NCBI RefSeq assembly: GCF_030548465.1
Contig: NZ_JAUOSF010000002.1
Span: 434,001-498,000, forward strand
DNA: 64,000 nucleotides
Origin: Tamlana sp. 2_MG-2023
GTDB lineage: Bacteria > Bacteroidota > Bacteroidia > Flavobacteriales > Flavobacteriaceae
Direction: 5' to 3'
Below are positions 27,918 through 62,044 of this stretch, piece by piece; positions within the stretch are counted from its first letter, which is position 1, and every line of letters begins with the position of its first letter. The notes under the pieces were generated by a model. That model saw nothing but the letters and a program-made list of their open reading frames with translations. It ran no database searches and was not told the origin of the DNA. A program made the translations under genes and the position numbers.

Positions 27918-28844
27918 ATGAAACTTTTAAAATATAACATATTAGCTATTGTCTTGTTAAGCTGTACGTTGGGAGTTGCACAACAGTTACCGCAATTTAC
28001 GCAGTATATGTACAACACCATCTCCATCAACCCCGCTTATGCTGGTAGTAGAGAAGCGTTAAGTATTGTTGGACTGCACAGAAGCCAATGGGTTGGTTTT
28101 AAAGGCGGACCAATAACACAAACATTATCTATAAATACACCGTTAAGAAACGACCGAATAGGTTTAGGCTTATCTTTTATGGAAGATGATTTAGGTCCGC
28201 AAAATTTCACATACCTATATGGCGATTTTTCATATTCAATTCCAACTGGTAAAAATGGAAAATTATCCTTTGGAGTTAAAGGTGGCTTTACACAATTTAG
28301 TTTTGACTCTAATTTCCGAGTAGATCCAGATAACCAAAACGACCCACTTATTTATGGTACAGAAGATAGATGGTCACCGAATATTGGTGCAGGTGTTTAT
28401 TGGAGTACAAATCGATTATATTTCGGATTATCTGCACCAAGAATATTGAATACCGATTTACATAAAGAAAATGGTTATGAAGCTCTTGAACGTATTAGTT
28501 ATTATTTTACAGGAGGTGTAGTTGTTGACATAAGCAAGCATTTCAAATTTAAACCAGCATTTCTAATAAAAGCAACTAATGGGGCTCCCTTGTCTTACGA
28601 TTTAACTGCTAATTTTTTATATAACGATAAATTCTGGTTAGGTGGTTCTTATAGGATTAACGAAGAAACTGCTGCCATTGGAGGCATTGTAGATTTTCAA
28701 ATATCTAGACAACTACGTATTGGATATGCCTATGAAAAACCAATTTCAGATATCGCAAGTTACACTACTGGAACTCATGAAATATTACTCATGTATGAAT
28801 TTAAATTTATGAGTACTAAACTAAAATCTCCTCGCTACTTCTAA
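27918..28844 (+). CDS. PorP/SprF family type IX secretion system membrane protein
   Basis: 308 residues. A signal peptide (LAIVLLSCTLGVAQ) is followed by LPQFTQYMYNTISINPAYAGSREALS, the diagnostic start of the PorP/SprF family. It then shows a barrel-like strand pattern ending in MYEFKF before a short tail. PorP/SprF proteins sit in the outer membrane and are needed for export or attachment of the type-B T9SS protein encoded beside them, as SprF is for SprB. It starts 10 bases after the giant gene and 11 bases before the OmpA-like gene, so all three are one operon. Confidence 0.93.
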   Translation: MKLLKYNILAIVLLSCTLGVAQQLPQFTQYMYNTISINPAYAGSREALSIVGLHRSQWVGFKGGPITQTLSINTPLRNDRIGLGLSFMEDDLGPQNFTYLYGDFSYSIPTGKNGKLSFGVKGGFTQFSFDSNFRVDPDNQNDPLIYGTEDRWSPNIGAGVYWSTNRLYFGLSAPRILNTDLHKENGYEALERISYYFTGGVVVDISKHFKFKPAFLIKATNGAPLSYDLTANFLYNDKFWLGGSYRINEETAAIGGIVDFQISRQLRIGYAYEKPISDIASYTTGTHEILLMYEFKFMSTKLKSPRYF

Positions 28845-58467: not shown

Positions 58468-59157
58468 ATGAGAGCAGAAAAACACCCAAAAGGCTGGAAT
58501 GAAATTAAAACAAACGATTCTTGGGCCATTTTTAAAATTATGGGTGAATTTGTTAGTGGTTTTGAAAAAATGAGCAAAATTGGTCCTTGTGTATCTATTT
58601 TTGGCTCCGCAAGAACAAAACCCGATCATAAATATTACAAATTAGCCGAAAATGTGGCTAAAAAAATTGTTGAAGGTGGTTATGGTGTCATCACAGGTGG
58701 TGGTCCCGGTATCATGGAAGCTGGAAATAAAGGAGCGCATTTAGCTGGCGGAACTTCCGTAGGACTTAATATCGAATTGCCTTTTGAGCAACATGACAAT
58801 CCTTATATTGATGCTGATAAAAATTTAGATTTCGATTACTTTTTTGTTCGTAAAGTGATGTTTGTAAAATATTCACAAGGTTTCGTAGTGATGCCTGGAG
58901 GTTTTGGAACATTAGATGAACTTTTTGAAGCCATAACATTGATACAAACCCATAAAATTGGAAAATTCCCTATAATCCTTGTCGGAAGAGCGTTTTGGGC
59001 AGGTTTATTTGAGTGGATTAAAAATACACTATTAGAAACCGATGCTACAATTAGTGCCAAAGATTTAGATCTTATTCATTTGGTAGACACGGAAGATGAA
59101 GTCATTGATATTCTTGATGAATTCTATAAGAGCTCAGATTTAAGTCCGAATTTCTAA
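58468..59157 (+). CDS. LOG-family (TIGR00730) Rossmann-fold protein
   Basis: 229 residues. Family motifs: SIFGSARTKPDHKYY, GYGVITGGGPGIMEAGNKGAH and VVMPGGFGTLDELFEAIT; PGGFGTLDE is the nucleotide-binding and catalytic motif. Some LOG proteins cleave cytokinin-riboside monophosphates, others nucleoside monophosphates such as AMP. The natural substrate in Flavobacteria is unclear. It is 71 bases downstream of uvrA on the same strand and 55 bases before the M1-like gene. Confidence 0.88.
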   Translation: MRAEKHPKGWNEIKTNDSWAIFKIMGEFVSGFEKMSKIGPCVSIFGSARTKPDHKYYKLAENVAKKIVEGGYGVITGGGPGIMEAGNKGAHLAGGTSVGLNIELPFEQHDNPYIDADKNLDFDYFFVRKVMFVKYSQGFVVMPGGFGTLDELFEAITLIQTHKIGKFPIILVGRAFWAGLFEWIKNTLLETDATISAKDLDLIHLVDTEDEVIDILDEFYKSSDLSPNF

Positions 59158-59212: not shown

Positions 59213-62044
59213 TTGAGACTACGTTTTTACAATTGTTTTCTTTTCTTTTTCATTAGCCTGCTAGGTTTTAGTCAAAATAAAATTGACTTAAAAGCAGTTT
59301 TTGACGTGGAAAACAAACAGATAAAAATATCTCAAACTATTATTTATCATAATAATACAAATAATGAATTAGATCTTATTTATTTAAACGATTGGAACAA
59401 CAGTTACTCCTCAAAAAACACACCTTTAGCTCAACGTTTGGCAGAAGAATATAAAGACGAATTTCAACTCGTTAAAGATGAAGATCGTGGTTTTTCAGAT
59501 ATTAATTATATCAAACAGAATGGGCAGCTTTTAGAGTATGAAATACTAAAAGACCAGCAAGACGTTATTAAAGTTTATTTAAAAGAAGCTTTAAAGCCTA
59601 ACGCATCTTATGAATTGGAGCTCGATTATATTGTTAAAATCCCACATGCAAGTTTCACCCGTTATGGTATTAATGACTATGGTAATATCAGCCTTAGGTA
59701 TTGGTACATTACACCAACGGTTTATGATGGCCAATGGCAATATTATAGCAACAAAAACTTAGACGACCTATTCATCCCTAAAGCGGATGTTACATTAGAA
59801 ATTGAATATCCAAACACCTACGATTTAACTTCAGATTTAAATTTAGACAAACTAACAAAAACATCTGAAAATGAAATAATTGCATTAAAAGGAAAACACC
59901 GAAACTCTAACAAATTATTTCTTCAAAAGGACTCCGATTTTGACACCATACAAGCTGATGATTTATCAATCATTTCGAATATTGATGGTAAAGGTGTTGA
60001 GATTATAGATCAAGTAATAATCACTGAACGTATTGCTAAATTTATAACTGAAAACTTTGGTGAATACCCACATGAGCGCCTTTTACTAACTCAAATTGAT
60101 TATGATAAAGATCCCATTTACGGATTAAATTTCTTACCAAAATTCATAAAAACACACCCTTTAAGTTTTGAATATGAACTAAAAATCCTAAAAATTGCCC
60201 TTTACAATTATTTAGAAAATACTTTATTACTTAACCCTAGAAAAGAGCAGTGGTTAATTGATGGTATACAAATTTACTACATGATGCAGTATGTAGATAA
60301 GTACTATCCTGACATGAAGTTTCTTGGTTCAATTTCCGATTTCTGGGCAGCAAGACCCTTTCATGCATCAGACATGATGTATAACGACAAATACATTCTA
60401 GCCTATATGATTATGGCTAGAACCAATAGAGATCAACCACTAACTATGGCCAAGGACTCGCTTTTAAAGTATAATAAAAATATAGCCAACAAGTACAAAG
60501 CAGGTGTTGGATTACAATATTTAGATGACTTTACAGACCACACCATGGTTGAAAGTAGCATCGAGTCTTTTGTGAAAGAATCTAAGTTAAAAAACACCTC
60601 GATTACCGAATTTGAAAATTATTTAAAGTCACAAACAGATAAAAACATCGATTGGTTTTTTAGTGATTATTTAGCGACTCGAAAAGTTATTGACTATAAA
60701 ATTAAAAAAGTTAGTAAAACGGAAGATTCCATAACTTTAACCATTAAAAATAAGGGTAAAAATAACATGCCTGTGTCATTATACACCCTTAAAAACGACA
60801 GTGTTGTGGCTAAGCAATGGGTTGAAGACATTCCCGAGTACAAAACCATTACTATACCAAGGAATGAAGGTGATAAATTAGTTTTAAATTATGAAAACTC
60901 CATTCCAGAATTCAACTTAAGGGACAACTGGAAATCATTAAAAGGCGCTTTTTCAAACAATAAACCTTTACAAGTACGACTATTTAAAGATCTTGAAGAC
61001 CCTAATTATAGTCAGGTATTTATCATGCCTATTTTAGAATTTAATAATATTTATGATGGTATTAATTTAGGATTAAAAGCATACAACAAAACCATATTAC
61101 GACGTATGTTTTACTACAAAATAGCGCCACAATATTCCTTCGGCTCCAATGCCGTAACAGGCTCGCTTACGGTTTCAAAAACGCATAATATTCAAGATCG
61201 TAATTTATTCTACCTTAATTATGGTTTTTCAGGATCGTACAAATCTTATGCAGAAGATTTGTTCGTTAGACGATTAACGCCATCTTTCTCTTTGCTTTAC
61301 AGAGACAACGAAGACTTTCGCTCTAATAAAAGAGGCGCATTATATACGAGGTTTATTGATATTCATAGAGATGAAGATGAGCGAAACCTCGTAACAAGTG
61401 ACGAGCCTAATTACTCCCTTTTTAATACCCGTTTTGTCTATTCAAACGATAACCTAATTAACTTTTATAAGTGGTATGTCGATCTTCAGTTTAGTAAAGA
61501 ATTTAGTAAGGTGTCCTTAAATTATGAATACCGACATTTATTCGAAAACAACCGTCAGATTAACGTTAGGGCCTTTGCCGGAACGTTTTTACGGAATGAC
61601 AACGACCCTACTTCAGATTACTTCAGCTTTGCTTTAAACCGCCCAACCGATTATTTATTTGATTATAATTATCTGGGAAGGTCTGAAACTACTGGGATAT
61701 TTAGTCAGCAATACATTCCTGCTGAAGGTGGATTTAAATCTAAATTAGAACCTGCTTTTGCCAATCAATGGATTACAACGTTAAACGCAAGTACTACATT
61801 ATGGCGTTATATTTTACTTTATGGAGATGTTGGTTTGGTTAAAAATAGATATGAAGATCCTAAGTTTGTTTACGGCACAGGTGTACGTGTAAATTTAGTC
61901 ACAGATTATTTCGAATTATATTTTCCAATCTACTCTAATTTAGGATGGGAAGTCTCTCAACCTAATTACGCTGAGCATATTAGGTTTATATTTACCATAG
62001 ACCCCCAATCGTTACTCGGATTATTCAGAAGACGCTGGTTTTAA
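59213..62044 (+). CDS. M1-like metallopeptidase homologue without zinc motif, fused to an outer-membrane barrel-like domain
   Basis: 943 residues with a TTG start at 59213; an in-frame stop lies two codons upstream, and the signal peptide (FYNCFLFFFISLLGFSQ) follows directly. Residues about 20–230 match the M1 N-terminal beta domain. The expected HExxH region reads LKIALYNYLENTLLLNPRKE, with no HExxH anywhere in the protein. WLIDGIQIYY occupies the place of the usual W-N-E-G block, with the glutamate replaced. The enzyme is therefore probably not an active zinc peptidase. From about residue 600 (NNIYDGINLGLKAYNK) to the final RRRWF the sequence has alternating strands typical of an outer-membrane barrel. 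Likely an outer-membrane pseudo-enzyme, role unknown. Confidence 0.75.
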   Translation: MRLRFYNCFLFFFISLLGFSQNKIDLKAVFDVENKQIKISQTIIYHNNTNNELDLIYLNDWNNSYSSKNTPLAQRLAEEYKDEFQLVKDEDRGFSDINYIKQNGQLLEYEILKDQQDVIKVYLKEALKPNASYELELDYIVKIPHASFTRYGINDYGNISLRYWYITPTVYDGQWQYYSNKNLDDLFIPKADVTLEIEYPNTYDLTSDLNLDKLTKTSENEIIALKGKHRNSNKLFLQKDSDFDTIQADDLSIISNIDGKGVEIIDQVIITERIAKFITENFGEYPHERLLLTQIDYDKDPIYGLNFLPKFIKTHPLSFEYELKILKIALYNYLENTLLLNPRKEQWLIDGIQIYYMMQYVDKYYPDMKFLGSISDFWAARPFHASDMMYNDKYILAYMIMARTNRDQPLTMAKDSLLKYNKNIANKYKAGVGLQYLDDFTDHTMVESSIESFVKESKLKNTSITEFENYLKSQTDKNIDWFFSDYLATRKVIDYKIKKVSKTEDSITLTIKNKGKNNMPVSLYTLKNDSVVAKQWVEDIPEYKTITIPRNEGDKLVLNYENSIPEFNLRDNWKSLKGAFSNNKPLQVRLFKDLEDPNYSQVFIMPILEFNNIYDGINLGLKAYNKTILRRMFYYKIAPQYSFGSNAVTGSLTVSKTHNIQDRNLFYLNYGFSGSYKSYAEDLFVRRLTPSFSLLYRDNEDFRSNKRGALYTRFIDIHRDEDERNLVTSDEPNYSLFNTRFVYSNDNLINFYKWYVDLQFSKEFSKVSLNYEYRHLFENNRQINVRAFAGTFLRNDNDPTSDYFSFALNRPTDYLFDYNYLGRSETTGIFSQQYIPAEGGFKSKLEPAFANQWITTLNASTTLWRYILLYGDVGLVKNRYEDPKFVYGTGVRVNLVTDYFELYFPIYSNLGWEVSQPNYAEHIRFIFTIDPQSLLGLFRRRWF

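Follow-up and report, generated by a model that had tools for sequence, protein, structure and literature searches.

Among described proteins, the M1 metallopeptidases (ERAP1, IRAP, tricorn F3 and LTA4 hydrolase; PF01433) come closest to the N-terminal part of the protein analysed here: both have the same beta and helical domains (Z 20-22), but our protein lacks HExxH, the third Glu and GxMEN, falls below Pfam detection and has a C-terminal barrel added. An M1 fold without peptidase function presumably has a parallel in TAF2 of TFIID, which is, however, a eukaryotic transcription factor without a barrel. For the barrel, the best Foldseek and profile matches are to the Omp85/TpsB superfamily (Sam50, TamA, BamA and FhaC; PF01103), whose barrels carry a VRGF/Y motif in loop L6; our protein has a conserved segment in the place of L6, but lacks POTRA domains, VRGF/Y and a PF01103 score. 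Ten Omp85 subfamilies, some of them without POTRA and one ('Metallo') with PF00149, are described in the portion of Heinz and Lithgow (2014, PMC4104836) available to us, and no M1 domain is among the subfamilies described there.

In the Flavobacteriaceae, the F. psychrophilum elastase FP0506 (PMC6414381) also belongs to the gluzincin clan; set beside our protein by description, it differs in that the accessible part of that paper reports elastase activity and places it at the surface as a lipoprotein. The folds described in the available text on the BAM complex of F. johnsoniae (PMC12611786; BamG, BamH, BamM and BamP) differ, by description, from the M1-barrel arrangement; no M1-like subunit is named in that text, and the word 'peptidase' is absent from its main text. 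BamM, as a possibly M1-like subunit, was considered as a candidate identity and dropped, since that text describes it as having a PPI-fold domain and another domain whose ions were assigned as calcium. The literature search returned nothing on our protein, and the part of a review (PMC13067283) available to us has nothing on an M1 domain.

The window (the whole stretch of 64,000 nucleotides that was analysed, from Tamlana sp. 2_MG-2023) encodes this protein near its end, and the features of the gene are collected in Table 1. The mature protein, as judged by eye, begins at about Gln21.

Table 1. Features of the M1-barrel gene and its upstream neighbour (window positions)
Feature	Position	Strand	Basis
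Upstream gene, LOG-like	58468..59157	+	family of 77 counted members in fetched loci
Whole gene: zinc-free M1-like domain plus outer-membrane barrel, 943 aa	59213..62044	+	ORF, relatives, AlphaFold2 model
TTG start codon	59213..59215	+	start-codon comparison across loci
Signal peptide, residues 1-20	59213..59272	+	by eye; modelled helix 2-16; Q21 conserved
M1 N-terminal beta domain, residues 21-255 (border by eye)	59273..59977	+	AlphaFold2, Foldseek, VIA
M1 catalytic-type helical domain, residues 256-490 (borders by eye), metal site lost	59978..60682	+	alignment, AlphaFold2, VIA
Former GxMEN strand, residues 301-309, here PIYGLNFLP	60113..60139	+	alignment
Former HExxH, residues 327-331, here KIALY	60191..60205	+	alignment
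Former third zinc ligand Glu, here Asp350	60260..60262	+	80-row alignment
Beta module joining M1 domain to barrel, residues 491-559 (borders by eye)	60683..60889	+	AlphaFold2 models
Barrel strands 1-11, residues 600-795	61010..61597	+	AlphaFold2 models
Strongly conserved segment, residues 804-850 (LGRSExxGIFSQQ...AEGGFK), placed like Omp85 loop L6, without VRGF/Y	61622..61762	+	conservation; pLDDT <50 at 807-849
Last barrel strands, residues 851-930; three modelled with fair confidence, rest inferred	61763..62002	+	AlphaFold2 models
C-terminal tail, residues 931-943, aromatic end	62003..62041	+	near-locus comparison
Stop codon TAA	62042-62044	+	sequence

The M1 relationship, which the earlier note had proposed, is borne out by structure prediction. 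The full-length AlphaFold2 model, computed with the window protein aligned to 79 near loci, has a mean pLDDT of 79.7 and a pTM of 0.81; the best 50 Foldseek matches listed for it all carry titles of M1 aminopeptidases (best E 3.8e-17), and VIA superposes model residues 21-601 on ERAP1 with a Z of 22.4 (463 residues at 3.4 A) and on LTA4 hydrolase with a Z of about 21. The window protein sequence has no significant match in Pfam, NCBIfam or the PDB, with the gathering score of PF01433 not reached in the Pfam scan, and an 80-row profile found no chain in the PDB. A plain protein search with the window protein reaches an ordinary M1 enzyme of 626 residues (HELAH) at 6.6e-11.

The zinc site is lost. 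As had been claimed beforehand, no HExxH occurs anywhere in the 943 residues, and the question whether flavobacterial orthologues share this absence is answered by the near loci, none of which (0/80, including two contig-end-cut loci that contain the site) has the motif. The suggestion that ALYNYLEN stands in its place holds as to the loss and is corrected as to the position, since the old site, KIALY, starts two residues earlier. Lys occupies the position of the first zinc His in all 80 rows, Trp347 is likewise invariant, and position 350 is Asp in 77 rows and Glu in three; position 331, the second ligand, is not conserved and is His in only 23 of 80. The former GxMEN strand reads PxYGLNxLP in near relatives and usually GGMEYP in zinc-bearing ones. 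Other metal ligands at the active site are thus not indicated, as judged from sequence alone, the first position being always Lys and the second unconserved, and the Lys327-Asp350 pair may substitute for the metal. A non-catalytic role, as the earlier note had suggested, is likely.

The near loci (n=80) belong mostly to Flavobacteriaceae by title, with some metagenome-assembled genomes named only as Flavobacteriales, Bacteroidia or Bacteroidetes. Of 296 genomes sampled across the phylum, 138 gave a match at E <= 0.001, in many cases through an ordinary M1 enzyme; among the genomes listed, all 30 of the window's family (f1) match at 8.8e-131 or better, and the non-matching genomes listed first come from more distant groups. 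In an order sample of 148 genomes, 77 matched at 1e-20, and every f1 genome among the 21 listed had a single match at that level. From the phylum-sample matches 37 loci were fetched, and the order-sample matches in G265, G351, G364 and G388 were left out. One f1 genome (G257) carries the gene in two pieces on contigs C6 and C12 (L114), with a TAG inside one piece, and we read this as a broken copy or an assembly fault.

The zinc site distinguishes two sets among 109 full-length rows: 31 have it, and 78 have no HExxH anywhere. These counts omit a copy of the window protein itself (L085), a repeat (L160), pieces (L114 and L127), other M1 proteins (L136, L142, L143, L144 and L146), proteins shorter than 880 residues, including canonical M1 enzymes, and 70 of the 80 near loci. 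The zinc-bearing group was defined by HE[VIL]GH, and the sole independent count is therefore the third-ligand Glu at position 350, present in 31 of 31; the Met of GGMEYP is present in 30 of 31. Among the fetched rows of the order, families f53, f54, f59 and f62 and two of three f63 rows keep the site, and f1, f2, f51, f52, f60, f61, one f63 row and f55, except for an extra copy (L168), have lost it. Genome G376 of f55 has both a zinc-free (L167) and a zinc-bearing (L168) protein, a pair that could be due to paralogy, transfer or contamination. The f63 family mixes the forms, with L182 and L183 (G358 and G365) beside L153 (G339); L153 groups with window-family forms on both trees described below, which suggests transfer or a binning error.

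The zinc-bearing proteins of other Bacteroidota (for example L161, L120 and L122) have the length and architecture of the window protein and are homologous to it over both M1 domain and barrel but, unlike it, keep HE[VIL]GH and the third Glu; no description of such proteins was found in the open-licence literature. They are about 930-1055 residues long, and most align to window residues 896-942, with a few local matches ending earlier, for example at 679 or 852. All nine scanned pass the PF01433 cut-off, and six gave NCBIfam matches to aminopeptidase N or LTA4 hydrolase that lie far under the cut-offs. The barrels of the nine (L120, L122, L125, L128 and similar) have no Pfam match.

These relatives also bear on the order of events. 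The earlier note had the protein lose its zinc site and gain a barrel, and a gain in the zinc-free line is not borne out: zinc-bearing relatives are full-length, with matches reaching residues 896-942, and the M1-plus-barrel arrangement is therefore older than the loss of zinc. Trees were built without the zinc-site columns. A quick tree of 86 rows that included the long row L189 gave the zinc-free group a support of 49; on a thinned tree of 42 rows, built by a careful method with L189 omitted and a column-occupancy threshold of 60 rather than 50 percent, the zinc-free rows form one side of a branch with support 100/100. On both trees the zinc-free state needs one change, which is what would be expected had zinc been lost once, in one ancestor within the window's order. 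On the 42-row tree the zinc-bearing protein L161 (G298, f53) adjoins the dividing branch, and its C-terminal tail, LKRGFY, is of the zinc-free type.

A simple dN/dS calculation on ten pairs, with synonymous change saturated in several of them and ranges covering computable values only, put the M1 beta domain at 0.03-0.13 and the helical domain at 0.03-0.10. Values for the two former site helices were 0.01-0.22, those for the beta module 0.02-0.10 and those for the barrel 0.01-0.09. The lowest values (0.00-0.06) are those of segment 804-850, and the signal peptide (20 codons) is far less constrained, at 0.19-2.4. Selection on the gene, as estimated from these pairs, is purifying.

The C-terminal barrel that had been proposed from the letters is present in the models, with long strands at 600-795 and 851-893 and VIA Z scores of 13-15 to outer-membrane barrels; together with the signal peptide recognised by eye, it marks an outer-membrane beta-barrel protein. 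Omp85 barrels have 16 strands; here eleven precede the conserved segment, three to four are modelled after it, and more are inferred. The pLDDT is below 50 at 807-849 and 895-943 of the full-length model, and the last strands are therefore blurred. Modelled alone, residues 490-943 reach a pLDDT of 70.6 and a pTM of 0.62. The proposed aromatic ending is there, as W-F or W-Y in 80 of 80 near loci, but it is not plainly a strand-terminal signal, as it follows a short tail after the last strand; further relatives end differently (RKWL, RGFL or RGLL).

Of the barrels compared, those of the Omp85 type probably come closest, though remotely. With residues 490-943 as query, 49 of the best 50 Foldseek matches listed are Omp85/TpsB proteins by title (Sam50, with the best E of 2.5e-6, TamA, BamA and FhaC), the remaining one being a chain of an LptD complex, and TM-scores on the query are low (0.23-0.41). 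In profile comparisons by hhalign against 31 Omp85 sequences from Bacteroidota genomes, a 41-row barrel profile gave the best result (Prob 54.7, P 1.2e-4), aligned over the region of the conserved segment and the surrounding strands; Prob was 10-55 in 11 of 12 forward runs and 0.9 in the other, below the usual confident range. The controls, run with four forward profiles, reached at most 5.4 for FadL (14 sequences), 1.2 for PorP (20) and 2.4 for TonB receptors (25), all sets smaller than the Omp85 one, and at most 1.4 for reversed targets; a reversed query against reversed Omp85 gave 28.1, like the forward pair, as expected.

VIA, by contrast, ties Sam50 (Z 15.1) with the TonB receptor PirA (14.6) and the porin MOMP (14.5). 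At the gathering score, the Pfam scan found no PF01103 match in the window protein or nine relatives and no POTRA in the window protein, where the M1 fold occupies the place before the barrel; instead of VRGF/Y, the segment in the L6 position carries GRSxxxG...Q...GGFK. With Prob below the confident range, a tie in VIA, and PF01103 and VRGF/Y absent, we call the barrel Omp85-like without assigning it to the superfamily: it probably resembles Omp85 more than the other barrels tested, at a remote distance. A search of its own genome with the barrel profile matched only the gene itself, so that no paralogue bridges it to Omp85.

The TTG start, which had been remarked on as unusual, is real and conserved. 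Of 78 loci, 77 have TTG at this in-frame position and one has GTG; within the span searched (19 to 28 codons before the anchor, with L024 and L067 omitted as contig-end cuts) TTG is the sole type of start codon in 69 of 78, and an extra ATG occurs there in eight. The TTG-only share of this gene family (67 of 78) is the highest of the 33 families compared in the fetched loci, and no other family with at least 20 members exceeds 18 of 73. An ATG is within reach in 77 of 77 members of the upstream family, which we take to be LOG-like proteins of the lysine-decarboxylase type, and in 76 of 77 of the downstream family. The control with uvrA (n=73) gave 32 ATG, 18 TTG-only and 23 without a start, and this start-codon control is hence noisy. 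The upstream ORF runs four bases into the gene (TTGA) in 21 of 78 loci, and the conserved TTG and the overlap may point to weak or coupled translation. TTG was also considered as a marker of the zinc-free state and rejected, as several zinc-free rows have ATG (much of f55 and part of f2); because it prevails in the window's family and not in all zinc-free groups, it belongs to expression rather than to zinc loss. The neighbourhood of the gene holds no telling partner gene. Elsewhere in the window, at 27978-28796, lies a gene for an outer-membrane protein of the PorP/SprF family, which is linked to type IX secretion and gliding.

A conserved cleft without metal, a strictly conserved barrel segment and family-wide presence together suggest a binding domain that serves the barrel, and, given the resemblance to Omp85, a first guess at its role is that outer-membrane proteins are assembled or exported with its help. 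We therefore favour, tentatively and with a little less than even confidence, a core outer-membrane pseudo-peptidase whose M1 domain would be a periplasmic, non-catalytic binder on an Omp85-like barrel, acting in the assembly or passage of outer-membrane or surface proteins. The signal peptide would export the chain and the C-terminal barrel would insert into the outer membrane, with the M1-fold domain hanging into the periplasm from its N-terminal end, the place of POTRA in Omp85 proteins. Its ancestor would have been a zinc M1 peptidase fused to a barrel; once the ligands were lost, in a single ancestor of the window's order, the cleft with Lys327 and Asp350 at two of the ligand positions may have been kept as a binding surface. 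Most likely the domain would bind peptide segments or a partner protein, to be held or presented at the barrel while outer-membrane or surface proteins are assembled or passed on. That the family is an undescribed subfamily of Omp85 type, in which M1 replaces POTRA and a peptidase that died once in the order became the receiving domain of an assembly or export device, as a core gene of Flavobacteriaceae, is possible but, in our estimate, rather unlikely.

The same observations can be read otherwise. The barrel could be an anchor or a pore of another kind, with the dead M1 domain as a docking scaffold for envelope proteins; the VIA ties with TonB receptors and porins, the missing PF01103 match, the low TM-scores and an hhalign Prob of at most 55 all agree with this, but Foldseek and the profile comparison both single out Omp85, and it would be unusual for a mere anchor to be most constrained between strands 11 and 12, so that we consider this reading doubtful. 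Domains N-terminal to Omp85 barrels are normally periplasmic and no linker or cleavage signature is recognisable by eye, both of which count against a surface receptor or adhesin whose M1 domain is carried out of the cell in the manner of an autotransporter passenger. This improbable placement has a precedent in PlpD-type Omp85 proteins, whose patatin domain is reported, in the available part of PMC4104836, to be released outside. A surviving enzyme, working through other residues or another metal, would account for the conservation still seen in the old substrate strand and elsewhere in the cleft (PxYGLNxLP, Lys327 and Asp350), but by sequence neither zinc His remains in the window protein, nor does the catalytic or the third Glu, and with His at position 331 in a minority of rows we give it little credence. 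The lost active site and the split G257 gene with its TAG might even suggest a gene on its way out, a reading to which an uninterrupted frame in all 80 near loci (two contig-end-cut), low dN/dS and retention in every window-family genome among those listed leave practically no room.

The pseudo-peptidase reading, if correct, concerns outer-membrane assembly and export in Bacteroidota, which are unusual and have begun to be understood only recently. The protein occurs in 30 of 30 genomes of its family among those listed, and has no family model. What was once an enzyme seems to have become a non-enzyme, in a single event, and to have been under strong selection thereafter. The zinc-bearing relatives provide a natural before-and-after comparison, in which the old activity and the new role are both directly testable, and L161 is a good before-state for experiments. 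That the sampled family members keep both the zinc-free M1 domain and the barrel suggests that a broken enzyme has found lasting use as a non-cutting component of the outer membrane.
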